Assembly (NCBI GenBank): GCA_030710605.1
Contig: CP092869.1
Location: 7,211,866 to 7,275,865 of the forward strand
DNA length: 64,000 nt
Source: Cordylochernes scorpioides
Taxonomy: Eukaryota > Arthropoda > Arachnida > Pseudoscorpiones > Chernetidae
Direction of reading: 5' to 3'
Part shown: positions 12,450 to 58,399 of the stretch, one piece after another
How positions within the stretch are numbered: the stretch's first letter is position 1
Layout of the letters: each line of letters opens with the position of its first letter
Program-made: the position numbers and the translations under genes
Notes under the pieces: model-generated
The model's input: only the letters and a program-made list of their open reading frames with translations
Database searches by the model: none
Told to the model about the DNA's origin: nothing

Positions 12450-13438
12450 TTGTCATTTGCTCACATCTTATATTATGTCGTGCAGACCAAAGTGTTATAA
12501 CTTCTCGAATAACACTGGTGCACACAATTTTACCCCTTATGTTTAATTTATCGCTTTTCGCTCATTAAAAGAAATAGCATAAGGAATATTCTCTGTAACC
12601 CCCCACCTTTAGAAATTTTGGGCAAAAAAAAATAATACAAAATGATTTTACTACCACGTTTTTCAACGCAAATGGTTGATTCAAAAATTATATTTATTTG
12701 AGGGGATACATTTTTAAAAATCGTGTACAGTATAATAAACAATGATAACATTTGACAAGCCCATAGGATATTCGGGATAAAGTACGACAAATGTATTTTG
12801 TCACTCCCATCTATATTTCATTTGTTGGATCATGACAAATTTCCAGTTAAATAGTCGAGTGTCGCCAATTATTCAAGAAATTACACATTCCTTATAGCAA
12901 GAAATCCTATTAGTAGTACCATTATAATTTTTGGTACTATATTAACATTTCAAAAAATCGTGTATTGAATTCAGCTATGTTTTTCAAACATTCAATATAT
13001 TTGACAAAACTCTATCAAAAATATAAATATTTTTTGCTACATGTTTTAATTTGCATATACCTATTTTACATATCTCAGATTGTATTTAAAAATCGTTAAC
13101 CATTTCTTCTAACTTTTGGCGAAATGGTGCTTTATTAATTAACGATTTGATATTATTAGGATTCTTTCCTGGTATACAAAAATGAAAAATACGTGTAGAT
13201 CAGTTATACTTTTCAATTAATCAAACAATTTGGCCGCTGAATTTCTGATTCTGGTACAGCGCCATCTAGGGAATGAAATTGTAACTAAAATCAATTTCGA
13301 AATTTTCAATATTTGCCATAAAAAATCCCATTGCATTCTGAACACAATGGTGTTTACCGCATTGCTCTAGCGCAAATATTCGCGGAGTTATTAATTTTTA
13401 AAGTTGTGCGGGACTTTTGGATCACCCTGTATATAGAT
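12450..13438. other. AT-rich stretch without genes; possible DNA transposon end at 13410-13438
   Basis: No convincing coding sequence. Short open frames are AT-rich and lack motifs. At 13410-13438 the sequence reads GCGGGACTTTTGGATCACCC followed by TGTATA. This resembles the outward end of many arthropod DNA transposons, which often start TACAGGGTG, but I found no matching opposite end. Confidence 0.5.
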
Positions 13439-13576
13439 GGAAATTTTGCCGCGAGGATATTGATTTAAAGAGACAAAGGTCGCCTCTCCCGTCAAAATAG
13501 ATGTCAAAACTAAACGCCATCTATTGACCGTCACCACAAACTAGCGGTCTCGGGTCGGTGACAAAGCCACAACATA
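13439..13576. repeat. Dispersed repeat R1 (GCCATCTATTGACCGTC family)
   Basis: Shares TCTCCCGTCAAAATAGA, GACGCCATCTATTGACCGTC-type sequence and a TCGGGTCGGTGACAAAGCC-type end with copies at 20385-20526, 38755-38875 and 43731-43925, and a half copy at 24738-24783. Two copies (here and at 43731) share the same leader ending GAGGATATTGATTTAAAG. No coding capacity. Confidence 0.7.
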
Positions 13577-14439: not shown

Positions 14440-14524
14440 CTTATTAGTGGACTGACCGGCAGTATCTGGTGGAGAGTCGGGGTTGAGGCTCTGGAAGGAA
14501 CCAGATAGTTGCCACCTTGTTTGT

Positions 14525-15853
14525 ATGCCTGTGGAGACCAGAGGACAGAAAATGGCCTCAGAGGAACTTCTGAAGCAGTTCATGGGCCTTATGAGGCAAG
14601 AAAAGGAGGAGGAAGAGCGGAGACGAGAGCAAGAAAAGGAGGAGGAAGAGCGGAGACGAGAGCAAGAAAAGGAGGAGGAAGAGCGGAGACGAGAGCAAGG
14701 AAAGGAGGAGGAAGAGCGGAGACGAGAGCAAGAAAAGGAGGAGGAAGAACGGAGACGAGAACAAGAAAAGGAAGAGAAGCTGAAGCGAAGAGAAGAAAAA
14801 GAGGAGAAGCTGAAGCGTGAAAAGGAGGAGGAAGAGCGGAGACGAGAGCAAGAAAAGGAGGAGGAAGAGCGGAGACGAGAACAAGAAAAGGAAGAGAAGC
14901 TGAAGCGAAGAGAGGAAAAAGAGGAGAAATGGGCCAAAATGCTGTCGGGGATAAGGGTGGAGCTCAAGGAGGAACTGGCTGCCCTGGACAGCAAGATGGG
15001 AGAGATAAATATCGCTTTGGAGAGCGAAGTAGATGAGAGGAGGGGAGAGTTTAAGAGGCTTGAGGATGAGCTGGCTCGTCTAAAGAGTAATGGAGGGTTT
15101 GTGGCTGGGACTGCCTCTGCAGTATTAAAAATTACTCCACCAACCTTCGACGGACAGAGTTCTTCCGGGAATTACATGAGACAATTTGAGGCAGTTTCCC
15201 TCAACAATGGATGGGGAGAGGCCGAAAGGGCAATAAATCTCATTGTGGCTCTACGGGGACCAGCATTGGACCTGCTTCAGACAATCCCAGAGCAGGACCA
15301 ACGGAGTTACGTAAGTTTGGTAAGTGCTCTAGAATTGAGATTTGGGGATCAGCACTCAAGACACGTATTCCAATCTCAACTAAAGCTGAGAAGGCAGAAG
15401 ATGGGGGAAAGCCTACAGGAATTCGAGGCCGACCTGAAGAGACTTTGTCTGATGGCATACCCCAGCGCTCCGATAGATTTCATCGATCAATGGGTGGCTC
15501 AGACTTTTATCGAGGGTATTCGGAATGTCGAGGTGCAGAAGACATTGAGACTGACCTCCTTCAACACGTCAAGGGAGGCGCTGATTCGCGCGCTAGAAAT
15601 AGACGCGGCATTTAAGATCAGCGACTCAGGGCCACCCAGGGTCCGTAAATCTGAGTTGACAGAGGAAGAAGGTGCCGTTGGGGGCTCTAGAGATTCTGGG
15701 ATTGAAGAAATAATCAAAAGATTGGACAAGTTGGAAGAAGCTGTTAAACATCGCAGAAGACCGGTTGGACCTTGTTTCCGCTGTGGTAAAATGGGCCACC
15801 TGAAAAGTCAATGCACTTCCAGGTTGTCCACCGAACAGCAGCAGGAAAACTAA
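14525..15853 (+). CDS. gag: Gypsy gag polyprotein
   Basis: The frame is open from 14483, but that start would be TTG; the first ATG is at 14525 (MPVETRGQKMASEELLKQFM), giving 442 codons. Residues about 25-140 are an extremely charged helix built from 10-residue repeats of the type EEERRREQEK, encoded by near-identical 30-base units (14595-14780 and 14820-14900). A capsid-like region follows (ITPPTFDGQSS, YMRQFEAVS, LKLRRQKMGESLQEFEADLKRL). One zinc knuckle, CFRCGKMGHLKSQC (C-x2-C-x4-H-x4-C), ends the protein. Gag forms the particle and binds element RNA. It overlaps pol by 43 bases, and pol lies in the minus-one frame, so pol is probably made by frameshifting. Confidence 0.9.
   Translation: MPVETRGQKMASEELLKQFMGLMRQEKEEEERRREQEKEEEERRREQEKEEEERRREQGKEEEERRREQEKEEEERRREQEKEEKLKRREEKEEKLKREKEEEERRREQEKEEEERRREQEKEEKLKRREEKEEKWAKMLSGIRVELKEELAALDSKMGEINIALESEVDERRGEFKRLEDELARLKSNGGFVAGTASAVLKITPPTFDGQSSSGNYMRQFEAVSLNNGWGEAERAINLIVALRGPALDLLQTIPEQDQRSYVSLVSALELRFGDQHSRHVFQSQLKLRRQKMGESLQEFEADLKRLCLMAYPSAPIDFIDQWVAQTFIEGIRNVEVQKTLRLTSFNTSREALIRALEIDAAFKISDSGPPRVRKSELTEEEGAVGGSRDSGIEEIIKRLDKLEEAVKHRRRPVGPCFRCGKMGHLKSQCTSRLSTEQQQEN
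14595..14925 (+). repeat. 30-bp coding minisatellite inside gag
   Basis: Tandem units of GAGGAGGAAGAGCGGAGACG plus GAGAGCAAGAAAAG, each 30 bases, about five in a row from 14605, then a variant block (GAGAAGCTGAAGCG) and two more copies after 14820. The larger pattern is itself duplicated. It encodes EEERRREQEK repeats predicted to form a long single helix or coiled coil. The antisense open frames here are by-products of the repeat. Confidence 0.9.
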
Positions 15854-18800
15854 AATCTGCCAGCGCTAAGGGGCGACCGTTGGCAGGAGTGGACGCAGTC
15901 CCTAAGATCGTCTCTATCCAAAGAATGAGGAGGGCGTGGGACACGCTGATGATAGAGATTATGGTAAACTCAAAAAAAATTAAAGCAACTGTTGACACCG
16001 GAGCGATGGTCTCCTTGATAAGAAAGGATGCGCTGAGAACTGCGCCGAGGCCGTTGCATCGAAAAATGATGCTGAGGACCGTCACGGGGGATACTGCACC
16101 AATTGAAGAAGAGCTTGATGTGGATATCCGTTTGGGGGGGACCCGTTTCGATCATAGAGTACTGGTGGCAGATATCGAGGATGAGTTTATTCTTGGCATG
16201 GACATCATCCGGGAGCATGGCTTCACGTTCGACCCAACACAGGGTATCCTAAGGTTAGGCGACGAAAGCTTCGTGTTGTCAACAGAGGGTGAGAAGTGTG
16301 AAGGCGTCCGACTCTTCGCCTGTGAAAATGGGTGTGTCAGTGGAAACTGCGAAGGGGTTATCATGACGGTTGCCGAGGCACCCCTTGGGAGTGGTGTTGG
16401 CTTGATTGAGCCAACTTGTGACGCAAGGCAGAACCTTTTGGTGGCCAGGGCTATTGTCAAGACCGCCGACAAGAAAGTTCCAGTTAGACTGGCCAACGTT
16501 TTTCCGAGTGGAATCAGCATCAGGAAGGGAGACTTTCTGGCAGTTTGCTCGCCAATCTCGAGGATCGCCACGACAGAAGGAACTAACTGCCAAAGTGGAG
16601 TAAACAGGGTGGGGCAGACAAAATTGGAGATAGACCTGAAAGACCTGACAGAGGATGAAGCTCGGATGGCTCGTGCATTTATAAAGAAAAATCAGGATGC
16701 CTTTTCTACTGGTAATGGGAAGTTGGGAAGGACAGACTTGGTCCAACACAAGATTTATACCGGAAATGCTCGGCCAGTCCGGCAACCTCCTAGACGGGTG
16801 CCAATGGCAAAACGAGACGAGGTAGTAGGGCTGTTGCATAAATTGGGGCAGGATGGAGTTATAGAAGAATCCAACAGTCCGTGGTCTTCACCCGTGGTTC
16901 TGGTAACAAAAAAAGATGGGTCTACAAGATTTTGTGTGGATTATCGAAAGCTGAACGAGGTTACCAAGAAGGACAGTTACCCTCTACCCCGGATCGATGA
17001 CACTCTGACAACATTGGCGGGGTCATCTTGGTTCTCTACATTGGATCTAAAGAGTGGATACTGGCAGGTAGGCGTACATCCGGCTGACAGGGAGAAAACG
17101 GCATTCAGTACCGGGAATGGGCTCTATCAATTCACAGTGATGCCTTTCGGGTTGTGTAACGCGCCGGCTACTTTTGAAAGGCTGATGGAGCTCGTACTTA
17201 GGGGACTAACCTGGAAAACTTGCTTGGTCTACCTCGATGATGTAATGGTTATGGGCAGGACGTTCGGGGAACATCTTAAAAATTTGCAAGAGATCTTCAA
17301 TAGATTCAAGGCGGCGAATTTGGGGTTGAATCCTAGGAAGTGCCAGCTGTTCCAGAAGAAGGTAGAGTTTTTGGGCCATACAGTGTCTGCGAAGGGGATC
17401 CAGACAAGCGAGAGCAAGATCCTTGCTATCAGGGATTGGCCCAAACCAAAGGACAAGCACGAACTGCGAAGTTTCCTTGGACTCTGCACATACTACAGAC
17501 GGTTCGTAGAGGGATTTGCAGACATTGCTGCCCCGTTGCACAGATTGACAGAGGCGAAATCGACCTTTCACTGGAATCAGGATTGTGAGAGCGCATTCGT
17601 GACCTTGAAAGGCGGCCTATGCTCCAGTCCAGTTCTGGTGTATCCCCAACCTGGGATGAGATTTGTACTGGACACAGATGCCAGTAACAGCGGTATTGGA
17701 GCCGTTCTGTCTCAGGTTCAAGATGGAGAAGAGCGAGTGATCGAATATTACAGCAAAATCCTAACCAAACCTGAGCGAAACTACTGCGCTACAAGAAGGG
17801 AGCTCTTGGCCATAGTCAGATCAGTGGAACATTTCCACAGGTATCTATATGGGCAAGATTTCTTGGTTAGGACCGATCATGCCGCACTCACATGGCTACT
17901 ACAGATGAAAAATCCTGAAGGCCAGGTGGCGAGATGGTTGGAAAAGCTGCAGCAATACCATTTTCAAATTAGACATCGGCCTGGGAAAAGACATCACAAT
18001 GCGGATGCGCTGTCCAGAAGACCTTGCGGAAGTTGCAAGCATTGCGAAAAAATTGATAAAAATGAGAGCGAGGCGACATCGAGAGGGACGACTGTGGTAC
18101 CGAGCGACGAGTGGACCCCTGCAAGCTGCAGAGCCAGCCAGCAACAAGACTTGAATATCGGTCCAATTTTGGAATTAAAGGAAAACGGAAACCTAAGACC
18201 TAGCTGGGAGATCATATCGGATAAGAGCCCAGCACTTAAGGCATTATGGGCACAGTGGGACTCCTTGAGGGTTGAGAACGGACTGCTGAAGAGAGTGTGG
18301 GAAAGTGCTGATGGGAGGAGCACAAAAATGCAGCTAGTGGTCCCGGAGGTTAAAATTCCTTGTGTCCTGCGGGAGGTGCACAGCGGAGCCTCGGGATCTC
18401 ACTTTGGCGTGACGAAAACCTTGAGAAAGGTTAGAGAGAGGTTCTACTGGGTATATTGCCGGGAGGACGTGGAAAATTGGTGCAGGCGATGTACCACATG
18501 TGCTGCCAGCAAAGGCCCACAAACTAGGTCCAGAGGAAAAATGAGAGAATACAACGTGGGAGCGCCTTTCGAAAGGATCGCGATTGATGTGGCTGGCCCA
18601 TTTCCAGTCACAGAGGATGGAAACAAATACCTCTTGGTCGCTATGGACTACTTTACGAAGTGGCCCGAGGTCTACGCGATTCCTAATCAGGAGGCTGCTA
18701 CGGTCGCAAGGGTTCTTGTAGACAACCTTATCTGCCGATTTGGTGTGCCATTAGAACTGCACTCAGATCAGGGGCGGAACTTTGAATCGGGAGTATTCCG

Positions 18801-19425
18801 AGAATTGTGCCAGGTATTGGGAATCTGGAAAACAAGGACTACTCCCCTGCATCCACAGTCGGATGGAATGGTGGAAAGGTTCAACAAGACCATGGTGGAG
18901 CACCTATCCAAGGTTGTGGAGCAGAATCAAAGGGACTGGGACCGTAGACTGCCACTGTTCCTCATGGCGTACCGAGCGGCCATTCACGAAACAACGGGTC
19001 AAACACCGGCCAAGGTTATGTTCGGACGAGAGCTACGACTCCCTTGTGACTTAGAATTTGGCACCCCTGGAGGACCACCAGTAGAGGTGACCAGTTATGT
19101 GGGCGAACTGAGAGGTGTGCTGTCGGAAACTCATAAATTGGTTAGGGAAAAAATCCAGCTAGCAAGTCACCGGATGAAGACTCACTACGATCTAAAAGCA
19201 AACCATGAAGGATTCAAAGAGAATGATCTGGTATGGATGTTTAATCCAAAGAGAAAGAGAGGGCTCTCCCCAAAGTTAACACCAATGTGGGAAGGACCCT
19301 ACAAGGTCGTCAAGAGAATCAACGACTTGGTTTACCGCATCCAGCGAAGTTCGAAAGCAAAACCAAGGGTCGTCCATTTGAGCCGGTTGGCACTCTTCCA
19401 GGGAGAGCAATCAGAGTGGACCTGA
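15811..19425 (+). CDS. pol: Gypsy pol polyprotein (protease, RT, RNase H, integrase)
   Basis: One frame of 1204 codons. Protease VDTGAMVSLI with D62-T63-G64. RT at about 315-480 with [39 protein letters not shown] and the catalytic YLDD at 474-477. RNase H begins FVLDTDASNSG (D621). The integrase zinc finger has H857, H864, C894, C897. Its catalytic triad is D926 (AIDVAGPF), D986 (HSDQGRNF) and E1022 (SDGMVERFN); the last two are 35 residues apart, the standard D,D35E spacing. The C-terminus (GPYKVVKRINDLVYRIQ) is the GPY-type end of gypsy integrases; no chromodomain is evident. All catalytic residues are present. The ATG at 15811 lies within gag in another frame, so initiation is probably by minus-one frameshift rather than at this codon. 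Confidence 0.95.
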   Translation: MHFQVVHRTAAGKLKSASAKGRPLAGVDAVPKIVSIQRMRRAWDTLMIEIMVNSKKIKATVDTGAMVSLIRKDALRTAPRPLHRKMMLRTVTGDTAPIEEELDVDIRLGGTRFDHRVLVADIEDEFILGMDIIREHGFTFDPTQGILRLGDESFVLSTEGEKCEGVRLFACENGCVSGNCEGVIMTVAEAPLGSGVGLIEPTCDARQNLLVARAIVKTADKKVPVRLANVFPSGISIRKGDFLAVCSPISRIATTEGTNCQSGVNRVGQTKLEIDLKDLTEDEARMARAFIKKNQDAFSTGNGKLGRTDLVQHKIYTGNARPVRQPPRRVPMAKRDEVVGLLHKLGQDGVIEESNSPWSSPVVLVTKKDGSTRFCVDYRKLNEVTKKDSYPLPRIDDTLTTLAGSSWFSTLDLKSGYWQVGVHPADREKTAFSTGNGLYQFTVMPFGLCNAPATFERLMELVLRGLTWKTCLVYLDDVMVMGRTFGEHLKNLQEIFNRFKAANLGLNPRKCQLFQKKVEFLGHTVSAKGIQTSESKILAIRDWPKPKDKHELRSFLGLCTYYRRFVEGFADIAAPLHRLTEAKSTFHWNQDCESAFVTLKGGLCSSPVLVYPQPGMRFVLDTDASNSGIGAVLSQVQDGEERVIEYYSKILTKPERNYCATRRELLAIVRSVEHFHRYLYGQDFLVRTDHAALTWLLQMKNPEGQVARWLEKLQQYHFQIRHRPGKRHHNADALSRRPCGSCKHCEKIDKNESEATSRGTTVVPSDEWTPASCRASQQQDLNIGPILELKENGNLRPSWEIISDKSPALKALWAQWDSLRVENGLLKRVWESADGRSTKMQLVVPEVKIPCVLREVHSGASGSHFGVTKTLRKVRERFYWVYCREDVENWCRRCTTCAASKGPQTRSRGKMREYNVGAPFERIAIDVAGPFPVTEDGNKYLLVAMDYFTKWPEVYAIPNQEAATVARVLVDNLICRFGVPLELHSDQGRNFESGVFRELCQVLGIWKTRTTPLHPQSDGMVERFNKTMVEHLSKVVEQNQRDWDRRLPLFLMAYRAAIHETTGQTPAKVMFGRELRLPCDLEFGTPGGPPVEVTSYVGELRGVLSETHKLVREKIQLASHRMKTHYDLKANHEGFKENDLVWMFNPKRKRGLSPKLTPMWEGPYKVVKRINDLVYRIQRSSKAKPRVVHLSRLALFQGEQSEWT

Positions 19426-19927: not shown

Positions 19928-20089
19928 ATATATATGTATATATGAATCGAAATGTTTATATATTTGTGTGTTATAGGGCAATAAATAAAAGCTATTATAT
20001 GTGTAAAAATAAATTGTTATTATTTTTAACATTTATATATATATAAAAAAATAATAATAAAAGATAAGTGGGTCAGGTGTTGATATTAA

Positions 20090-20290
20090 AATGAAGAAGG
20101 CATCGCCTGACCACGAGCACATGTGGTTTTTAGATGGCAGAGCGCCATCTAGTGGAGCAAAAATAAACTAAACGTTTATTTAACTTTCTCCGTGATATTT
20201 GACCAACCCTATCTCTTGATAAATCAAGAAAAGCCATCCACGAACGCGTTTCGCGCTGTTGACGCTCGTCAGCGTGGAGTAGGCTATATT
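20090..20290 (-). repeat. Repeat B copy carrying a hammerhead ribozyme
   Basis: Family marked on the plus strand by CCTGACCACGAGCACATGTG, AGATGGCAGAGCGCCATCT (a 7-bp hairpin), AACTAAACGTTTATTTAAC and CTTGATAAATCAAGAAAAGC. Copies or pieces lie at 22520-22770, 27240-27480, 42931-43470 (three in tandem), 45620-45815 and 46026-46075. Here the minus strand begins with a hammerhead fold and runs about 150 bases into the body. No protein is encoded, so this is a non-autonomous element. Confidence 0.75.
20232..20285 (-). ncRNA. Type I hammerhead ribozyme
   Basis: Read on the minus strand the parts are in order: AGCC (stem I outer), UAC internal loop, UCCACG (stem I inner), core CUGACGA (20272-20266), stem II GCGU-CAACA-GCGC, core GAAA (20252-20249), CGCG, UU, then CGUGGA (stem I inner), U, GGCU (stem I outer). 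Inner stem I has 6 pairs, outer 4, stem II 4 including one U-G. Stem III is only A-U and C-G, but ACGCGU is self-complementary, so two copies could form a continuous 6-bp stem III. Cleavage is expected after U17, between 20243 and 20242. Every invariant core base I checked is present. Short stem III hammerheads acting as dimers are known from Penelope-like elements and animal retrozymes. Confidence 0.85.
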
Positions 20291-20384
20291 TATATATAAA
20301 GTAGGTTGAAATCCTCTGAAGAATATAAGTAATAGAATCCTCGCATGCTTTGATTCTATTACTTATATTTATATATAGAGATGA

Positions 20385-20526
20385 AAATCTTGCCGTGAGA
20401 TAGATAGGAATATGATCTATAAAAACAAAAAACACCTCTCCCGTCAAAATAAACGTTAAAACTAGACGCCATCTATTGACCGTTGCTACAAACTAGCGGC
20501 CTCGGTTCGGTGAAAAATTCACAACA
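20385..20526. repeat. Dispersed repeat R1, copy 2
   Basis: Carries TCTCCCGTCAAAATAAACG, GACGCCATCTATTGACCG and CAAACTAGCGGCCTCGG, matching the copies at 13439, 38755 and 43731, with more substitutions. Confidence 0.65.
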
Positions 20527-20779
20527 CCAACTTTGTCACACACAAACTGAGAAGCGTCCATTTATAAAATACGATAATGTAAAACAACGCCAATTTTATA
20601 AATCAGCTTTGAGTTTAGCATATATGGCTATCTAAAAGTAACAAAAAGGAAGTGAAATAAAATGTTTTTGCTTTAGAACTAATATAGTAAATGGTTCCTT
20701 TCTGAGATTCCATCCTTCAGTGCTGCGTATATAAGCAGAATCGTCCAATACAGTATTAGAACTCTGAGAAGCGGTCTGG
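20527..20779. other. Non-coding AT-rich stretch
   Basis: No gene, RNA or clear repeat recognised; it lies between copies of repeats R1 and A. Confidence 0.5.
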
Positions 20780-24703: not shown

Positions 24704-24783
24704 CTAATTGGAAATTTCGAGAAATATATTCTTCGTCAGTTTTTGACGTTTATTTTGACGAGAGAGGCGCCCTATGTTTCTAT
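24704..24783 (-). repeat. R1 half copy joined to a CTGACGA-hairpin-GAAA segment
   Basis: Plus-strand 24738-24783 matches one arm of repeat R1 (TTGACG, TATTTTGACG, GAGAGGCG). Immediately left of it the minus strand reads CTGACGA, AGAATATATTTCT, CGAAA (24736-24712), a core plus hairpin resembling the hammerhead-like tails elsewhere, but with imperfect pairing next to GAAA. Confidence 0.4.
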
Positions 24784-25315
24784 GGATTAATTTCCTCCCG
24801 GGAAATTTGCCATTTATATATATATATCTAAACTTGTATATTAATTTGGCGTGAAGTCGTACTTCAGGATTTCCGTGTTGAAGAGCATGTTATCCTGAAA
24901 GCTCGAGAAATAAAAGGATTAGAAAAAGAAACGAAACATTTAATTCCTCATTGATTATATAAAAAAATAATGGATTTGAGAAATATATATCCGAAAGTTC
25001 ATTCTAAAATGTTGAAATTATTTCATAATTGGTTTCGCATTACAGTAGAGGGGAGTTATCACGTGATTTGACTCGACCAATAGGGAGAGTTCCAGCTGTT
25101 AGGAGTCTCTTAGACACATTTTGTCGATCCGTCTCAAAAGAAAATAATGAAAGAAGTTGCCCCCTCTTCTTCCACCCCCATATTTTCCCTTTTTTTTATT
25201 TTCAGGCTGCATTAGCGCCGTTATATAGGGGCGGGGAATGAACCATCAGCACCAAAACTGGTCTTGTTACTCATTTTTTATCATCACTGGTAAAGTTTAT
25301 CATCATTAGTAAAGT
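24784..25315. other. Non-coding stretch
   Basis: AT-rich; no gene recognised. The open frame at 25029-25241 has no recognisable motif and no support. Confidence 0.5.
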
Positions 25316-27239: not shown

Positions 27240-27435
27240 TGATATTAGGTCCACTAGATGGCACTCTGCCATCTAAAAAGCACATGTGCTCCTGGTCAGG
27301 ATATACCTTCTTTATTTTTAATATCAACACCTGACCTTTTTATTTTTCTATTATTTTTTCAAAAAATATATATTAAAAATAAAAGACGCATATCCTGACC
27401 AGGCTCACCTGAAAATATCTATCATTTGAATCTGC
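27240..27435. repeat. Inverted pair of repeat B pieces
   Basis: Left piece: CCACTAGATGGCACTCTGCC and GCACATGTGCTCCTGGTCAG; right piece: CATATCCTGACCAGGCTCAC at 27389. The hammerhead-related copy follows directly at 27434. Confidence 0.6.
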
Positions 27436-27478
27436 ACCACGCTAAGGAAGGCAAACAGCCCGAAACGCGTTAATGGTT
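27434..27478 (+). ncRNA. Degenerate hammerhead ribozyme
   Basis: Plus strand: ACCACG, core CTAAGGA, 13-base stem II region AGGC-AAACA-GCCC, core GAAA, CGCG, TT, then AATGGT. The spacing equals the intact copy at 20232. The core has an A in place of the invariant G5, and two stem I pairs are lost, while GAAACGCGTT is unchanged. Probably inactive. Confidence 0.6.
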
Positions 27479-27661
27479 GACTTTTCTTAATATATATATG
27501 TTATGAATGTTTTGTATTTAGATTCGATAGTGCAGAGAGAGTTTAATTAAAAAAAAAAACTGAAAAAAAATAAGTATTAATACTTATTATCAAGTAGTGT
27601 TTATTTTTAAATAATTGAGAGAAAAAGTCACAATAAAATAGAGAAGAGTAGAATTTCTCAG

Positions 27662-28435: not shown

Positions 28436-31093
28436 TCAGCAGGAGACCTGCGCCTCAAGTCTACGAGCTCGCGACCGCGTAATAGGGCCAGGGATATCCA
28501 GGTCTCCTGGTCTGGGGACCTCCTCCTGGGCCAAGGGTGGTTGCCTCCCTTCCGCTGGAACTTCTTCCTTTTGAGGACTTGATAAGTCGTCTTCCATGTC
28601 CTCCTCCAGGTGGTCCTCCCGCTTCTCTGGATCTAAATAGGGCTTCATCCTGCAGATGTGAACTATGTCCTTTGTTTTACGACGACCAGGCTGGTCTCCG
28701 AATGTCTCCACTTCATATGTCACATCGGATATTTTTCTTGTTACTTTATACGGGCCGAAATAACGTCGCATTAGTTTTTCAGACAAGCCCACCTTGCGCA
28801 CAGGGATATAGATTCAAACGAGAACTCCGGGCTGATAGATTATGTTTCTGTGATGGGCGTCGTAACGGAGTTTATTTCCTCCCTGGGACCTCATAGTGTG
28901 AATGCGTGCCAGCTGTCGCGCTTCTTCGGCCCTTGATCCTAGAGTCTGGATGAAGTCATCTTCATCCTCTGAAGGAAATTTGGGGAATAGCAAGTCTAGT
29001 GGGGTCTCCGCCTCACGCCCGTGCACAAGGTAGAATGGACTAAACCTCGTGGACTCCTGCTTCGCCGTGTTGTATGCGAACGTCACGAATGGGAGAATCT
29101 CATCCCAATCTTTCTGGTTGACGTCCACATACATGGACAGCATGTCTGCTATTGTCTTATTCAACCTTTCAGTGAGTCCATTGGTCTGAGGGTGGTAGGC
29201 GGTTGTTGTCCGATGAGTTATTCGGCAGTGTTTGTTCAGATCACGAATCATTGAAGATGTAAAATTTCGTCCTCGGTCTGTGATAACTTCCCTCGGCGCA
29301 CCGTGCTTCAGAATTACATCTTTAATGAAGAATTTCGCTACTTCCACTGATTCACTTGTCGGTAGAGCTTTCGTGATCGCAAACTTGGTGAGGTAATCCG
29401 TACAGACAATGATCCAGCGATTCCCGCACATAGATGTTGGAAACCTTCCAAGGAGATCCATTCCCACTTTTTCGAAGGCAGCTATAGGCACAGGTATCGG
29501 CTGCAAAAGTCCTGGAGGGAGTTGGGGCTGGCGTTTGCGTCGCTGACAATCTGGACAGTGAGCCACATACTTCCTAACATTTCTATACATTCCGGGCCAG
29601 TAGAATTTTTTTCTTATTCGATCATATGTCTTAGTAAATCCAAGATGTCCTGAAGTGGGAGAATCGTGTAAGTTTCTCAGTATTTCAGGCTTCAAGTGGC
29701 GGGGGACCACCAGAAGCCATTCCCTTCCCATTGGATCGTAATTTTTTTTATGGAGAGTATCGTTTATTTTTATAAAGGACTTGTTAGATGTTTCCTGTTG
29801 GATTTTGTCGGCTATCATCGTGAGGTCCGGGTCTTTCATTTGTTCCCGTCCAAAATTCTGTAAGGCAACTATGCAAGGAATATCTTCTTCTATATCTTCA
29901 TTACAATTTAGGGGACTTCTTGATAAACAGTCAGCGTCCTGATGTTTTCTTCCGCTCTTGTGCACAACAGTAACATCAAACTCCTGCAGCCGAAGAGCCC
30001 ATCTTGCTAACCTCCCACATGGGTCCTTGAGGTTGGTCAGCCAGCACAAGGAGTGATGGTCAGTTACGATAGTGAATGGACGTCCAAAAACATACGGCCG
30101 GAATTTGCCAATGGCCCAAATAATAGCAAGACATTCTCTCTCAGTCGTCGAATAATTTCTTTCCGCCTTATTGAGCGTTCTCGATGCATAGGCAATGGCT
30201 CTTTCCTTTCCCTTTTGAATTTGCGCTAAAACTGCTCCTATTCCATAGTTGCTCGCATCAGTATGTATTTCTGTTGGGGATGAATGATCAAAATGTCCCA
30301 AGACAGGCTCAGAAATTAGGGCTGACTTGAGAGCTTCAAATGCGTGCCGCTCTTCTATGTTCCAACTAAACACTGAATCTTTCTTTAAAAGAGCGTTTAA
30401 TGGTTGGGCTATATGGGCATAATTGGGTATGAAACGGCGGTAGTAGGAAGATAGCCCTAGGCAACTTCTAACTTCTTTTAGCGACTTTGGTCTGGGGAAG
30501 TCACGGACTGCTCTAATTTTTTCTGGATCGAGACATATTCCATCTCCACTCACCTCATATCCAAGAACTGTTATAGTTTTCGCACCAAACCTGCATTTCC
30601 CCGAATTGAGGCACAAGCCAGCCTTCCTCAAACAGCCTAATACCAGCTGAAGGCGTCTCAGATGTTCCTCAAAATCATCGGAAAAAACGACTATGTCATC
30701 AAGGTAACAGAGACAGATTGTCCACTTAAGACCCTTCAAGAGGCCGTCCATCATTCGTTCGAATGTAGCTGGAGCGTTGCATAACCCAAATGGCATCACT
30801 TTGAACTCATACAATCCATCTGGGGTTATGAATGCAGTCTTCTCACGGTCCGCTTCCTCCACGTCGATCTGCCAGTATCCAGATTGGAGATCCATAGAGG
30901 AATAAAATCGTGCTCCCTGTAGACAGTCCAAAGTGTCGTCGATCCTTGGGAGCGGGTAAACATCCTTTTCTGTTATCTTATTAAGGCGGCGGTAATCGAC
31001 GCAGAATCTCCAGCTGCCATCTTTTTTCCTGACCAAAACGACCGGTGAGGCCCATGGGCTCGCAGAGGGCTGAATAATATCAATTTCCTCCAT
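28436..31093 (-). pseudogene. pol: Gypsy pol: RT, RNase H, integrase
   Basis: Minus strand from 31093. [47 protein letters not shown], and the catalytic YLDD near residue 125. RNase [16 protein letters not shown] and [15 protein letters not shown]. Integrase: zinc finger [18 protein letters not shown] with HCPDCQRRK, then [19 protein letters not shown] and [13 protein letters not shown] (the D, D, E triad). The frame stops at 28814 after QPGVLV; the same protein continues after one stop with RKVGLSEKLMRRYFGPYKVT to 28436, ending in an acidic tail. Another stop separates 31093 from the upstream protease. Otherwise well preserved. Confidence 0.9.
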
Positions 31094-31270
31094 TTAATTT
31101 ACCTCCTCTTGAATAATTTGACGTTCCGCTGGTGCTACTCGGTACGGTCGTTGTTTGGTGGGAAGGTGGTCTCCAGTGCTAATTCGATGCTTAACATTAT
31201 CGGTCTTGGACGCTTCTTTTTTTCTGAAATCAAAAATATCTCTATAGTTTCTCAATAAATTTCTTAATTT

Positions 31271-32026
31271 TTATTTTTGAAAATCGTCAAGTGAATCATC
31301 TATATTTAAAATTTCTGCAATTTTTGAATCCTCGGAATGGCCTATATCTGTTCCTACGTGGTTGCCCTCAGCAAGTACACAAAGCTGGCTATCCTCGATG
31401 ACGACATCATCGGCCACGTGCATCCCCTGGGGAATTATCTTCGGATATGGGCTCCAATTTGCCACCCACAGTTTTCCCCTGTTACTGGTAAGTGAGATGA
31501 TAGAGGAGGGAGCCATTAGTTCTCTTTCCAGCGACAGACCTTTTTGACTTTCTGCCACCACAGCTGCATTATCTGAGATGTCTCTGCTTAATACCTCTAT
31601 CAGCTGACAAGATGCGGGCTCTATTCTGTATTCCCGTTCCGCGTAGAGAGGTGAGTTGTTCTTGGGTGTGTCCTCGACTAGGAATTCCTCTAAAAAAAGT
31701 GTATCTTCTGCAGAATCAATTACCGCCCTGGATAACTTCAAAAAGTCCCATCCGAGGATCACATCGTGACTACAGTCCTCCAGAACAATAAATTCGAAAT
31801 TTTCCTGCAGACCATTTAAGTCCAATTTTAAAGAGCAGCGTCCTTTCGGTTTTATAATTTTACCGTTGGCCACTCTTAAGCTCACGTCAGTTTCGGCAAA
31901 CATTATTTTCTTCAATTTGAGTCTGAACCTCTCGGACACGACAGAATAAGAAGCCCCAGAATCAACAAGAGCACTGGTTATATTTCCTTCTATATTAATA
32001 TTTATATAATTTCCTTTCATATCCAC
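31271..32026 (-). pseudogene. Gypsy aspartic protease region
   Basis: 251 codons with SALVDSGASYSVVSERF near residue 20 (the D-S/T-G active site, here DSG) and a second strand DVILGWDFLKLSR near residue 90, matching retropepsin structure. The rest is a linker to the RT. One in-frame stop (TAA just before 31093) separates it from the RT, and the upstream part of the linker is frameshifted near 31260. Protease cuts the gag-pol polyprotein. Confidence 0.8.
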
Positions 32027-32088
32027 TGTAGTCGATGAGGGAGGGTTTCCAAATTTTGCGGCCCCACCTCTAAAATAGGTCGCAACCT

Positions 32089-33014
32089 CTAGTTTTCCTG
32101 GCGGGAACGGCGAGGTGACCGACTGGACCCTCTAATAGGCGACGAATGTTGTCCGTTTCGGCCAGGGTATGGGGAAGGGCTTCGGTAACGTCTAAAATTA
32201 TCTCTTGGCTCGTCGTCATTGAGCGCAGGGAATTTGGAACGATGTCCATAGAAGAACATTGGTTCTTGCCTCCTTTGGGAATATCCGTTTTCTCTTTCGT
32301 CATTCTGTCTCCTTCTGTCACGGCAGTAACGGGCGACATGGCCAGGGCGTCCGCAATGGAAGCAAATTGGTCTTCCCTCAGTGGTCCGCCATTCATGTGT
32401 GTCCAGTCTTTCTCCCTGTTTCGGGTACCGAGCTCTGGGACGGGGAGTTTGGGGTGCGGCCGTCTCTCTTCTAGCGATTGGTGACGGCGTATAAGTTCGA
32501 TATTGAGGGGAGCCTCTAGAAGGATTTGATATTGGAGCGAGGGTTTTATCAATTTCTTCCCTCACCATATCTTCAATGGTGGCGATTCTTGGTTCTTCAC
32601 GAGGAGCGGCCAAGGCCCGTTGCACCTCCTTGCGGACAATTTGTCTAATCATGGATGACAAATCTGTATTATCATCGCAGACATCAAGGGATGCTACATT
32701 GGGCAAGCGTTCGTACTTGGCGGGGGTCACACGCCGACGATGAAGCGCTTCAATGCGGCGGCACTCAGACACAAATTGATCCGTATTGTTTATGTCTCTT
32801 GGAAGAAGCGCCTGATAAAGTTCTTCCACTATTCCTTTCATGAGGTGGGAGATTTTATCCCCCTCGCTCATTTGGAGATCCACCTCTTTGCAGAGTCGTA
32901 GGACGTCTTGTATATAGAACTCGGTGCTTTCACCCTTTAGCTGAGCCCGGATTTTAAGTTTTTTTCTCGGCAAGCAGCCGCAGACTCTCACTTTTCCCAA
33001 ATACACTCTCCAAT
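32089..33014 (-). pseudogene. gag: Gypsy gag, C-terminal part with zinc knuckle
   Basis: Resumes after the inserted retroposon with KKLKIRAQLKGESTEFYIQD, VLRLCKEVDLQMSEGDKISH and CRRIEALHRRR (capsid C-terminal part), then PICFHCGRPGHVARYC (C-x2-C-x4-H-x4-C near residue 230) and an arginine/serine-rich tail. The open frame starts at 33051 inside the insertion; the true gag reading begins near 33014. Confidence 0.8.
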
Positions 33015-33025
33015 TGAGTAGTAAA

Positions 33026-33144
33026 TACGTTTGTACGTTTTTACTATCCACGCCCGTTGAAGAACGTTTTGTTCGAAAGCTTGCGGTAATAAAGAAATTT
33101 ACACAAGAAGCTCCTCTTAAAAAAAATGTTTATTATTGTTTTAA
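33026..33144 (+). mobile_element. Short retroposon in gag, 11-bp TSD
   Basis: Flanked by TGAGTAGTAAA at 33015-33025 and 33145-33155. The insert contains GTTGAAGAACGTTTTGTTCG, AAAGCTTGCGG and TAATAAAG, followed by an A-rich end. A similar segment is at 48325-48375. The short hairpin GAAC-GTTTT-GTTC before GAAAGC resembles Penelope-type 3' tails. Confidence 0.7.
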
Positions 33145-33155
33145 TGAGTAGTAAA

Positions 33156-33404
33156 CTCTTCCCAATTCCGGATGGTCTCCTCATTATTCTCAAACCATTT
33201 GAGGGCAGTTCCATTCAGGTAAAAGCAGACATTGGCAAGACAGAGGGTTTCGTCCCAATGATTATGCTTTGCCACACGTTTGTAACCTTTTAACCAGGTA
33301 AGGGGATCCTCACCATCCTCCCCGGAGAACATGGAAGGATTCCTTGGTAGGTGCTGAACAAAATAATTGCCCACCTGGGTAGCTTCCTCTATATTCACGG
33401 TCAT
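33156..33404 (-). pseudogene. gag: Gypsy gag, N-terminal part
   Basis: Open on the minus strand with a plausible start ATG at 33404 (MTVNIEEATQVGNYFVQHLP). Capsid-like residues follow: SMFSGEDGEDPLTWLKGYKR, NHWDETLCLANVCFYLNGTA and LKWFENNEETIRNWEEF, the usual W-rich gypsy capsid signature. It is cut by the retroposon at 33026-33155 and continues downstream of it. Confidence 0.8.
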
Positions 33405-33501
33405 CTCCTTGAGCTCTACACTATATTCTTGTTTAACAGTTTCAGTCCTTCTTTTATGTCTGAAGGGATATCGGTCTTGACGATCCAGCGTCTCCACCAG
33501 T

Positions 33502-33779
33502 TGTAGCGTAGCAGAAAGGTAGAGTCGGTGATCCACAAACGAAGAACGTTATTTTATTAACCAAACAAACCGAGGTCAAAAGAAGAACAAACGAGAAATA
33601 TGAATGAATTAATTAATTATAATTGAGCGATATCTAGAAATAGCTATATTTAAAATAGTAAACAAAGGAGAGAGAGCAAAGAACAAAAGTCTCGTGGCCA
33701 CGCGGCCTCGCAGGGGTAACCTCCACAGGAAGTGACGTCAGCTCCAGGGTTGCTGAGCCAGCAATTTCACTTCGCTACA
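33502..33779 (-). repeat. 5' LTR of the minus-strand gypsy element
   Basis: Plus strand starts TGTAGCGTAGCAG and ends CTTCGCTACA, followed by ATAT. On the coding strand the interior begins AC, then TGGTGGAGACGCTGG, a primer-binding-site position starting with TGG; I could not name the tRNA. Confidence 0.9.
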
Positions 33780-38754: not shown

Positions 38755-38875
38755 ACACTAAAGAGACAAGGATCGCCTCTCCCGTCAAAATAGACATCAA
38801 AACTAGACGCCATCTATTGACCGTCGCCGCAAACTAGCGCTCTTGGGTCGGTGACAAAGCCACAACACCAGCTTT
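38755..38875. repeat. Dispersed repeat R1, copy 3
   Basis: AAGAGACAAGGATCGCCTCT, GACGCCATCTATTGACCGTC and GGGTCGGTGACAAAGCCACA match the other R1 copies. Confidence 0.7.
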
Positions 38876-38929
38876 GGCAAACATAAGCTTTGATGACAGC
38901 AGAATTACATACAATTATAAATATATAAA

Positions 38930-39673: not shown

Positions 39674-39746
39674 TGCCGAAACCCGGGATCGAACCAGGGA
39701 CCTTTAGAACTTCAGTCTAACGCTCTCCCAACTGAGCTATTTTGGC
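39674..39746 (-). tRNA. trnF-GAA: tRNA-Phe (GAA)
   Basis: Minus strand folds as a full cloverleaf: acceptor GCCAAAA/TTTCGGC with one A-C mismatch at the fourth pair, D-arm GCTC...GAGC, anticodon stem TTAGA/TCTAA with loop CTGAAGT (anticodon GAA), T-arm CCTGG-TTCGATC-CCGGG, discriminator A. A T-run (TCTTTTTTT) follows directly as Pol III terminator. Eukaryotic tRNA-Phe normally has G at position 4, so this copy carries one stem mutation and may be weaker. Confidence 0.85.
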
Positions 39747-39870: not shown

Positions 39871-39943
39871 GTCAAGGGATGGGAATCGAACCCACGACCT
39901 TCCGCTTACCGGGCAGATGCCATGAACACTAGGCTACCCTGGA
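39871..39943 (-). pseudogene. tRNA-like sequence, nominal anticodon GGT
   Basis: Minus strand forms a cloverleaf: acceptor TCCAGGG/CCCTTGA (one mismatch), D-stem GCC/GGC, anticodon stem TCTGC/GCGGA, loop CCGGTAA (anticodon GGT if read normally), T-arm GTGGG-TTCGATT-CCCAT, followed by a T-run. Position 33 is C instead of the near-universal U, and GGT is rare in eukaryotic threonine tRNAs. A 3'-half copy lies in the MITE at 33797-33998. Likely a tRNA-derived repeat or pseudogene. Confidence 0.6.
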
Positions 39944-43470: not shown

Positions 43471-43730
43471 ACCCTTTATACATATATCAATTGTGTTGAT
43501 ATATATTTATATTTTCATCTAACTAACTTGCATACTAATTCTGTACATATTTAAAATATATTTATTTTCTTTCAAAATTTTAGTTTATCTTTAATGTGCA
43601 AGTGTCCCTAGCGCTCTAAGTCGAAATAAAGAAAGGGTTGACCAAATATCAGGGATCAGGGAAGTGCGAGTGTCCGCTCATGGAGGTTTTATTGTAAATA
43701 TTTATCAAATTTTTTTACATATTTACATTT

Positions 43731-43925
43731 AGATGGAAATTTTGCCAGGAGGATATTGATTTAAAGAAACAAAGGTCGCCTCTCCCGTCAAAATAGACGT
43801 CAAAACTAGACGCCATCTATTGACCGTCAAAGACCCGAGACCGCTAGTTTGCGGTGACGGTCAATAGATGGCGTCTAGTTTTGACGTCTATTTTGACGGG
43901 AGAGGCGACCTATGTCTCTTTATAT
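43731..43925. repeat. Dispersed repeat R1 as a long inverted repeat
   Basis: Arms of about 66 bases (43764-43829 and 43855-43920) are nearly perfect reverse complements around a 25-base spacer. The left half matches the single R1 copies, so this is a fold-back version. Confidence 0.85.
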
Positions 43926-44059
43926 TTACATCTATTCATTCATATATTTATTATTATATTTAACTTGTATATTTAACCTTATATAACCTTTAATAAACGG
44001 CGTAATAAAATAGTTTGAATCTCAATCTCTCTCTCCATTAGACCGAGAACAAACACATA

Positions 44060-45467: not shown

Positions 45468-45925
45468 AAATAAAGCCTCCAGGACTAAGTTTCTTGTTCA
45501 ATTTTTTTATTTTCAAGCTTTCAGACTTGTCAGTCTTTCAACAGGAGTATCACGTTAATATATTGATGATAAATACTATTTTTATATAGATATATATTTA
45601 AATATAGATATATATATTAAAAATAAAGAAGGCATCTCCTGACCACGAGCACATGTGCTTTTTAGATGGCAGAGCGCCATCTGGTGGAACAGAAATCAAC
45701 TATTTATTGATTTTTGGTCAACCCAATTCCTTGATAAATCAAGAAAAGCCATCCACGAACGCGTTTCGCGCAGTTGGAGTTCGTCAGCGTGGAGTAGGCT
45801 GTACCACTGCGACCAAAAATAGTATATATCATCAATTTATTAACGTGATACTCCTATTGAAGGACTGACAAGTCCGAAAGCTTGAAAATAAAAAGTTGAA
45901 CAAGAAACTTAACCCTGGAAACTAT
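45468..45925. repeat. Composite: repeat E inverted pair flanking a hammerhead-bearing repeat B copy
   Basis: Left arm 45468-45580 and right arm 45828-45925 are inverted copies of repeat E (TTCTTGTTCAA and TTGAACAAGAA, GACTTGTCAGTC and GACTGACAAGTC). Between them lies repeat B (CATCTCCTGACCACGAGCAC to AAAGCCATCCACGAACGCG) with a degenerate hammerhead on the minus strand. Confidence 0.65.
45747..45800 (-). ncRNA. Hammerhead ribozyme copy with damaged stem II
   Basis: Minus strand: AGCC, UAC, UCCACG, CUGACGA, 13 bases ACUCCAACUGCGC, GAAA, CGCG, UU, CGUGGA, U, GGCU. Stem I, both cores and the cleavage-site UU are identical to 20232-20285. Stem II has lost its pairing (ACUC against GCGC), so activity is doubtful. 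Confidence 0.75.
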
Positions 45926-56686: not shown

Positions 56687-58228
56687 CTATTTCTCTATAA
56701 ACCAACCGTACTTATGATAGGAATTATTTTCCTTCATTTCATCAATCACGGAATCTTTTTCCACCACGATATTGCAGCGTGTTTTGATAAAAGAAACAGA
56801 CATCAGGGAAATACCGCAACGATTGGGGTAGATATCAGATAAACCGATTCCAATGTCGCATTCGTTGAAGATACAGTCCTGCAGAAAAAGCTCGCAAGAT
56901 CCTTCAACCTTCAATCCGTAGACTTTAGCATACATAATCTCACAATTTACAAACATTATCGTCCTTCCTTTAACGATATGAATTCCATTTTTACAATCCC
57001 TTGCATCAATCTTACAATTCCGTATTTTAAGACTTCCTCGATGATTCACAATCAAATCTTGAAGATCTTGATTTCCAGTGATATATAAATCATTTATAGA
57101 GACCTTACTAAGTGTGTTAAGATTGATAAAGATATCGCCTTGAATGTTTGCTATCAGAAATGAACGATTTTCATAATCAAGACCTGATAAAATAACTTCT
57201 TCTTCAATCCATATTGAAGACTTTGCTTCATATACTGAAGATGATATAAATACACATCCTTTATTGCTAACTCTACCCAGAGCTTTACCAAGATCCTTGC
57301 AGAATCCCAACGGCTCATCATCATTTACTGGAACATTTTTGATCTGTCCTAAAGTGATCGGATTTCCAACGATATAATATTTATAGCCATCTTTAATTTC
57401 ATTCTTCTTTACATCGATCTCACACATACGAAATTGTGGATTTTCCATAACAATAAATTTATTTTTCAACGTTTCATATTTACTTCTAAGTTCTAAATAT
57501 TTGATATATTCTGGGATATCTGGGTTATCTTCATTGTCGATGTAATCTTGAAATTTTTCCATTTTCACTTGAATCATTCGACTCTCTTGAATCATTTTTT
57601 GATATTTTTGTGATAGACTTCCAGAGAGATTATGTTTCTTGTATTCGATGTAAAGGCGATAGCGTTTTTCGAATTTATCAATGTCAAAGGCCTCGATATC
57701 TTCATGATCCTCTTCATCCCATGGTCGCCATAAATGATGATAGAAAATCCGCAGTTGAGAGATAAGATTAGCGGTGCGGAGAAAATTTTTCTCAGGATCA
57801 ACTAATGGATAAAGGTCTGTCAATGGAACATCAATAACCTCAGATGGAAGACGAAGAGACTGTGGGCACAAAGCTTTTTTGCAATCAACTGTGGCATTTA
57901 AAACAAGCTGGGATACATCTCTGACTTCAACAAGAACACAGGCTTCCATTTCAAGATACGACCAAGCTTCAGCCTTCCATAAAGCCTTCCATCCCACAGG
58001 CTCAATCTCGGAAACAATCTTTTCAACCCAGTGAGCTTTTACTGCAATGGTCGATATGGATGCATTCAGGATCTCCTTCGACAATTCCCAGAAGTTCTCT
58101 AATGCCTCATCGTCTAGATCATCCGAATACACTTCAGGCATTTTAAATTTTTCGGAATCTTCAAGTTCTTCATCCAAATCTTCAATAATTTCTTCCTTTG
58201 AAGTTTCTTTAACCTGACTTTCTGCCAT
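56687..58228 (-). CDS. SHCBP1/nessun dorma family protein
   Basis: Frame of 513 codons from the ATG at 58228 (MAESQVKETSKEE), stop at 56687; an upstream TTG at 58234 is unlikely to be used. The acidic N-terminus is followed by a helical region (WVEKIVSEIEPVGWKALWKA) and the block IFYHHLWRPWDEEDHEDIEA near residue 165, which closely resembles the W-x-x-WDEE signature of SHCBP1. A coiled segment follows (KYQKMIQESRMIQVKMEKFQ). The C-terminal 200 residues show right-handed beta-helix repeats (GSLKIRNCKIDARDC, GIHIVKGRTIMFVNCEI, GLKVEGSCELFLQDCIF). In animals these proteins work with centralspindlin in cytokinesis and spermatogenesis. The reading frame is open upstream (EEYSENEFEDILKM) to a TAACAG-like acceptor near 58296, so an upstream exon is possible. 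No introns within 1.5 kb. Confidence 0.85.
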   Translation of the reverse strand: MAESQVKETSKEEIIEDLDEELEDSEKFKMPEVYSDDLDDEALENFWELSKEILNASISTIAVKAHWVEKIVSEIEPVGWKALWKAEAWSYLEMEACVLVEVRDVSQLVLNATVDCKKALCPQSLRLPSEVIDVPLTDLYPLVDPEKNFLRTANLISQLRIFYHHLWRPWDEEDHEDIEAFDIDKFEKRYRLYIEYKKHNLSGSLSQKYQKMIQESRMIQVKMEKFQDYIDNEDNPDIPEYIKYLELRSKYETLKNKFIVMENPQFRMCEIDVKKNEIKDGYKYYIVGNPITLGQIKNVPVNDDEPLGFCKDLGKALGRVSNKGCVFISSSVYEAKSSIWIEEEVILSGLDYENRSFLIANIQGDIFINLNTLSKVSINDLYITGNQDLQDLIVNHRGSLKIRNCKIDARDCKNGIHIVKGRTIMFVNCEIMYAKVYGLKVEGSCELFLQDCIFNECDIGIGLSDIYPNRCGISLMSVSFIKTRCNIVVEKDSVIDEMKENNSYHKYGWFIEK

Positions 58229-58399
58229 TTTCAAGATATCTTCAAACTCGTTTTCACTATATTCTTCCTTCTTTATTTTCCTTCTCTTAAACTGTTAGAA
58301 CACTATTATCCTTTCCTAACATATTTACATATGTTCATTCTTTCAATCGATATATATAATATATAAATTTGCATATATTTGTATCTTTTACACATATAT

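Follow-up and report, generated by a model that had tools for sequence, protein, structure and literature searches.

A truncated retrozyme-like repeat with a type I hammerhead motif in the pseudoscorpion Cordylochernes scorpioides and its probable insertion by a Penelope-type enzyme

A stretch of 64,000 nucleotides from the genome of Cordylochernes scorpioides (contig CP092869.1, positions 7,211,866 to 7,275,865; hereafter the window) carries a hammerhead-like motif on its minus strand, within a dispersed repeat. This raises the question of what kind of element the repeat represents and which enzyme could have inserted its copies into the genome.

The hammerhead motif and its helices

A reading of the DNA made from the sequence alone (the sequence-only reading) had described the motif as a complete type I hammerhead ribozyme, and a check of the core and the pairs bore out its structural details. 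The minus strand contains the core CUGACGA and GAAA, followed by ACGCGU and U17. Stem I consists of four outer pairs (AGCC/GGCU) and six inner pairs (UCCACG/CGUGGA) with the internal loop UAC/U between them, and the four pairs of stem II (GCGU/GCGC) are capped by a CAACA loop; all 14 pairs of the motif were verified. The predicted cut site lies between 20243 and 20242 on the minus strand, which agrees with the position proposed earlier. As had also been proposed, stem III is nearly absent from the monomer, where a single A-U pair closes CGCG, whereas the palindrome ACGCGU could form a 6-bp stem III between two molecules (-7.5 kcal/mol). The word "complete" needed qualification: all the elements are present, but in energies that leave out tertiary contacts the hammerhead fold lies above the predicted minimum both for the monomer (-17.1 vs -21.2 kcal/mol) and for the dimer (-41.5 vs -52.6 kcal/mol).

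A strict descriptor (five stem I pairs, the core, three stem II pairs and UH) matched the 64-kb window once, at this hammerhead, and matched neither strand of 60 first-order Markov sequences of 64 kb each. When the whole window was searched with Rfam at the gathering level, the hammerhead was not found and the matches were two tRNAs. The HH9 model (RF02275) scored the motif at 24.7 bits (E 0.0036 for the 2,501 bases searched), compared to a gathering score of 52 bits. Across the genome this model gave at least 18 matches (58 scored of 178,716 candidates), the best at 41.8 bits and none of the 18 among the matches listed above the cut-off, and it gave no matches in any of 14 control genomes.

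We then evaluated the conservation of the helices among genomic copies. In an alignment of 13 copies, which were picked to include diverged ones and were not fitted to a model, 94% of the cells paired; double-sided changes occurred in 5 of the 14 pairs (a number reached by 5 of 500 shuffles), and the covariation score was reached by none of 500 shuffles. A covariance model built from these 13 copies (R1), searched at E up to 0.5, gave 117 matches in 56 sources, with 64 distinct sequences. In the alignment of the latter, which was fitted to R1 and hence is biased towards it, double-sided changes were found in 9 of the 14 pairs, and no shuffle out of 500 reached any of five measures. The core was intact in 102 of the 117 matches and ACGCGT in 96, with both present in 89. 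The compensatory changes among the copies support the predicted hammerhead helices. The sequence-only reading had named a covariance score below threshold together with a lack of cleavage, or else a lack of compensatory changes in stem I, as evidence that would speak against it; the Rfam score indeed stayed below threshold, yet compensatory changes were present in stems I and II. We are nearly certain that the hammerhead motif is real, and it would presumably cleave itself.

Non-coding tandem units and their place among retrozymes

The copy described here survives as a single-arm remnant about 240 nt long and shares 85% identity with unit A of the family (referred to as A/B) across unit positions 1-241. 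Its BLAST alignment extends to 20026 into a TA repeat, and the boundary given in Table 1 was trimmed by eye. At least 45 genome matches to a 251-base query (40 scored of 3,510 first-look candidates) confirmed the earlier claim that the repeat is dispersed. Elsewhere in the genome, units of 349-351 bp, or in some cases 343 bp, follow one another head-to-tail in arrays of this family. In one insertion (L027), about 4.9 units lie on one strand and about 6.8 on the opposite one, meeting head-to-head; each stretch is at least 99% identical to unit A, and the two end at unit positions 252 and 205. Both here and in a further array, L028, unit follows directly after unit and a coding body is absent. 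The repeat had been called non-coding, and around the circle units A and B contain no stop-free stretch above 105 amino acids and no region coding for a reverse transcriptase (RT) and a GIY-YIG domain. Their GC contents are 39% and 40%.

Table 1. Positions, within the window, of features related to the two hammerhead repeat families
Feature	Position	Strand	Remark
Truncated retrozyme arm, family A/B	~20045-20288	minus	unit ~347 to ~251, tailed T 3' end
Type I hammerhead motif	20231-20285	minus	HH9 match, pair check, model R1, strict descriptor
Stem III palindrome ACGCGU	20244-20249	minus	
TA repeat after the 3' end of the arm, presumed target	20034-20045	none	read from sequence
TA-rich flank at the 5' end of the arm	20286-20301	none	possible low-complexity target duplication with the other side
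Second A/B copy	45614-45819	minus	ends at unit 203 (S); hammerhead 45746-45800 with broken stem II
Diverged family member, 71% identity	27206-27495	plus	hammerhead remnant 27429-27483, core broken
Truncated unit C arm	20379-20560	minus	unit 52 to 219, hammerhead core absent; adjoins the A/B arm
Truncated unit C arm	13433-13574	minus	
Truncated unit C arm	24734-24817	plus	
Truncated unit C arm	38762-38882	minus	
Unit C arms	43730-43948	both strands	head-to-head, one intermediate end

The tandem units, together with their hammerhead and GC content, are retrozyme-like, as the sequence-only reading had suggested, and the A/B repeat very probably belongs to the retrozyme class. According to the available text of PMC7229834, the animal non-LTR retrozymes of coral, mussel and axolotl are likewise non-coding tandem units of about 170-400 bp with a GC content below 50% and a type I hammerhead. 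In size, GC content, tandem form and palindromic stem III the present repeat comes closest to the newt/axolotl type as described there, and its near-absent monomer stem III corresponds to the amphibian-type exception of that account. As far as the text of PMC3088659 is available, a palindromic, dimer-forming stem III has been described for newts and proposed for a repeat of Aedes aegypti, in which dimerisation would involve stem III/loop III; the Aedes dimeric stem has 10 bp compared to 6 bp here, and the Aedes RNA showed no cleavage in the assay. In the same text the way in which copies are inserted is not dealt with. The satellite pDo500 of Dolichopoda cave crickets also combines a hammerhead in tandem units with compensatory mutations, but in the available part of its description it is stems I and II that pair between the two molecules, whereas stem III folds intramolecularly, unlike here (PMC2837043). 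The earlier proposal of a new family is accordingly narrowed to a new member of the retrozyme class, as animal retrozymes and palindromic, dimer-forming stems III are already on record in the available texts of PMC7229834 and PMC3088659.

In addition, we found a second hammerhead tandem family, with a 320-bp unit (unit C; L035 1000-1801) unrelated in sequence to A/B. Its hammerhead follows the same plan, with 6 + 4 stem I pairs, 4 stem II pairs and the palindrome ACCAUGGU, and was assigned by reading the core and helices and by a score of 27.8 bits with R1; Rfam did not detect it at loose E-values. Between the adjoining A/B and C arms of the window there is a perfect 18-bp inverted repeat with a 12-nt loop (20322-20369), flanked by TA-rich sequence.

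Insertion anatomy of the copies and of resident Penelope-like elements

A comparison of units from L014 and L004 with 55 loci and the window yielded 121 arms, 90 of which passed a filter of 85% identity and 60 bp. L001, L012, L014, L019 and L025 had been excluded from this count as duplicates or overlaps, and L061-L066 lie outside it. The loci were chosen by similarity to the hammerhead half of the window copy or by the HH9 model; the 5' ends of the seed arms are therefore biased, whereas the 3' ends are unselected. The 5' ends were scattered across the unit. The 3' ends, in contrast to a uniform spread, which would place 5.7 arms in both zones together, fell largely into two zones, with 41 arms ending at unit 198-208 (S), 32 at unit 247-257 (T, tailed) and 17 elsewhere, several of the latter within a few bases of the zones. 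L057 and L058, which are segmental duplicates of L056, were included in the 90 arms and contributed no head-to-head pair; 86 arms (39 S, 32 T) are left when they are omitted. The near-identical flanks of L056, L057 and L058 (G000:C1, 154.6-154.9 Mb) reveal a segmental duplication that carries retrozyme copies.

Arms met head-to-head at 29 places and tail-to-tail at 3. Both ends were strictly classifiable in 19 of the head-to-head pairs, and 18 of these joined an S to a T end while one was S+S (P 3e-5 for at least 18 of 19 under random assortment); in the other 10 pairs an end lay beyond the zones. Widening the zones gave 20 S+T, one S+S, one T+T and seven pairs with an unclassified end among the 29. 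The AT content of the 20 nt past the ends was 83% (S) and 87% (T) vs 65%, and TATATA lay no more than 12 nt from the end of 20 of 41 S arms and 18 of 32 T arms, compared to a background of 2.3%. Target duplications, although clear by eye at L027 and L046, were dropped as proof: G/C-containing matches of at least 11 nt were found in 5 of the 29 pairs and in 98 of 1,774 mismatched control pairs, a frequency too high for the duplications to be more than suggestive.

Family C showed two end zones as well, its 29 matches ending at unit 185-191 (9), at 217-222 (15) or elsewhere (5, one of them at a locus edge). Among its five head-to-head pairs, judged by eye, two were clean (L020, L035), one was cut by a locus edge (L036), and the remaining two, in L018 and in the window, had an intermediate end.

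We compared this anatomy with that of Penelope-like elements. An optional 31-bp tail on one of the two inverted pseudo-LTRs (pLTRs) of Penelope is reported in the available text of PMC3846280, and in vitro Penelope uses two RT start sites that match this tail (PMC11167929). In that study the use of start sites showed no strand difference, so that a rule of one site of each kind per insertion is not predicted from it. GIY-YIG domains are frequent in the C. scorpioides genome (at least 146 matches at E up to 0.001; 150 scored of 17,015 candidates). One Penelope-like element (L063 1-5501, G000:C14:2434700-2440200) has head-to-head arms that are identical over 2,402 bp, and thus its insertion appears to be very recent. 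RT and GIY-YIG domains lie within a 784-aa frame; one arm ends at S, the other is about 33 nt longer, and an 11-bp duplication flanks the pair. The same S+T pattern, with a duplication of about 11 bp, was read by eye at L065/L066. In a search for Penelope 3' ends, which was ranked by score and so favours tailed arms, 38 of 43 matches ended at query 191-197 (T) and three at 160-162 (S), with one at 203 and one being the query itself; all three S arms stood head-to-head with a T arm. Altogether, five of the six Penelope pairs examined were S+T (L063, L065/L066 and three more). The exception is L030, which has a T end on one arm, a stop within the 3' part on the other, and no S end. A further locus, L064 (G000:C1:8987000-8992000), is a large head-to-head Penelope-like palindrome with arms about 99.4% identical, whose outer ends lie beyond the fetched stretch.

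The likeness extends to the Penelope/Poseidon clade, for which tandem and inverted head-to-head arms, an AT-rich target and a hammerhead in the pLTR are likewise reported (PMC11167929 and the available text of PMC3846280). The optional tail of that clade, on one arm, measures 30-40 nt in the same sources; in the A/B retrozyme the tail is about 48 nt and in family C 36 nt long. A relationship in sequence between these two tails and that of Penelope was considered and dropped as too weak, being a likeness by eye. Unlike Penelope, the retrozyme lacks an RT and an endonuclease, and its hammerhead has a longer stem I with an internal loop. The predicted cut of a hammerhead-like motif, recognised in L063 by reading its core and helices, precedes S by 49 nt and T by 82 nt, compared to about 160 and 208 nt in the retrozyme; this motif was detected neither by Rfam at loose E-values nor by R1.

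Animal retrozymes, their circles and a proposed mobilisation by Penelope have been published (PMC7229834, 2020; PMC7761336), and in the text available to us the mobilising enzyme is left open, with Penelope elements named as a strong candidate (PMC7229834). In contrast to the present copies, two 3' ends and head-to-head arms are not described in the available text of that account, and our searches of the open-licence literature gave no report of this two-end pattern for retrozymes. Within that literature, what the present analysis adds is the insertion anatomy of retrozyme copies. Since retrozymes and the Penelope proposal were known and the two-end pattern was unreported in these sources, the repeat is a new retrozyme member whose anatomy makes the partnership testable. 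The anatomy bears on the mobilising enzyme through sequence data only, and any genome with both retrozymes and Penelope elements lends itself to the check. For Penelope integration itself, the anatomy points to a rule by which each start site gives rise to one arm, a rule that could be put to the published in vitro assay.

Template, mechanism and competing explanations

The insertion anatomy that the repeat shares with the resident Penelope-like elements suggests, in agreement with the earlier proposal of a non-autonomous, Penelope-associated family, that the copies are mobilised in trans. We consider insertion by a Penelope-type enzyme likely, with good confidence, and we give a probability of about 0.75 to the reading of the window copy as a truncated member of the animal non-LTR retrozymes, with the copies of its family inserted by such an enzyme, presumably in trans and possibly from circular RNA. 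Tandem units are directly observed, as are the hammerhead motif and the covariation of its helices; in the proposed scheme a unit of about 350 nt would be transcribed from such arrays, and hammerheads acting as dimers through the palindromic stem III would release single units from the transcript, for a host ligase to close into circles by analogy with published animal retrozymes. A Penelope-type reverse transcriptase/endonuclease would then cut TA-rich DNA in trans and prime on both target strands, one cDNA beginning at about unit 203 and the other at about 251. Each cDNA would extend over a fraction of a unit or over several units of the template before the two cDNA ends are joined head-to-head. 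On this side the TA-rich flanks, the two 3' end zones, the opposite-end pairs and the resident Penelope-like elements with the same end pattern are direct observations. Against the scheme stand the 17 of 90 arm ends outside the strict zones, the 10 of 29 pairs with an unclassified end and the Penelope pair L030 without an S end. The weak support for target duplications, the lack of a strand difference in vitro and a hammerhead fold above the predicted minimum also count against it, as do the Anolis hammerhead mutants and the deletion of L028 treated below.

We lean towards a circular template. Of the non-seed arms, 41 have a recognised start; 20 of these pass the hammerhead cut, 20 stop before it and one stops within 3 nt of it, and 10 of the 41 are longer than one unit. 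With a single arm stopping near the cut, cDNA ends do not pile up there, unlike what would be expected for a linear cut monomer. The 12 units of L027 differ at 11 columns, 8 of which are private to one unit and 3 common to several. The private variants fit repeated copying of one monomer, although a homogeneous array would look alike. At L028, two adjacent units have an 8-nt deletion in common, so the template there was not simply one monomer circle; this fits a multimeric template or a later exchange. These common variants also favour the possibility, which we hold at clearly less than even odds, that the template is an uncut multimeric array transcript, with no circle involved and the hammerhead dispensable for insertion. 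The normal insertion in vitro of hammerhead mutants of an Anolis Penelope element (PMC11167929) points the same way, whereas the compensatory change that keeps the helices, as well as the private columns of L027 with the reservation just given, argue against an uncut template.

The shared anatomy could also be accounted for if an autonomous Penelope-like element had the unit as its pLTR, solo or tandem copies of which would then make up the arrays, the more so as hammerheads and tandem arrangement are known for Penelope pLTRs (PMC11167929). However, BLAST of units A, B and C against the Penelope-like loci L063 and L064 (two loci, compared to at least 146 GIY-YIG matches in the genome) gave no match, and L027 and L028 consist of units only. 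We regard this explanation as unlikely. A LINE-type enzyme, with head-to-head pairs arising from twin priming, is very improbable: LINEs are known for twin priming and remnants with endonuclease and RT are present in the window, but the TA-rich flanks and the pair of fixed internal 3' ends, of which each arm has one, are common to the Penelope-like elements, and poly(A) tails were not seen in the junctions displayed. That the repeat is an ordinary satellite spread by DNA recombination, its hammerhead having no role, is scarcely credible, as the tandem arrays it would explain are accompanied by dispersed copies, two fixed ends in TA-rich sites, opposite-end pairing and compensatory changes.

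Insertion by a Penelope-type enzyme being the preferred reading, we give roughly an even chance to its broader form, in which animal retrozymes in general would be passengers of Penelope, with one RNA site used per strand, a circular template and each insertion arising by double rolling-circle copying. In this genome the Penelope-like two-site signal is carried by two retrozyme families that are unrelated to each other; if this reading is true, the genome directly records the mobilising machinery, until now a proposal.

The window contains several other features. The two tRNA matches, above the gathering score, are located at 39674-39746 and 39871-39943 on the minus strand, their starts 197 bases apart. 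LTR retrotransposons with gag-like, protease, RT, RNase H and integrase domains occupy 14456-19425 (plus strand) and 28814-33548 (minus strand). A match to DUF4817 and a mariner-type transposase were also detected, and a 535-aa frame with an SHCBP N-terminal domain at 56687-58294 (minus strand) is probably a host gene.
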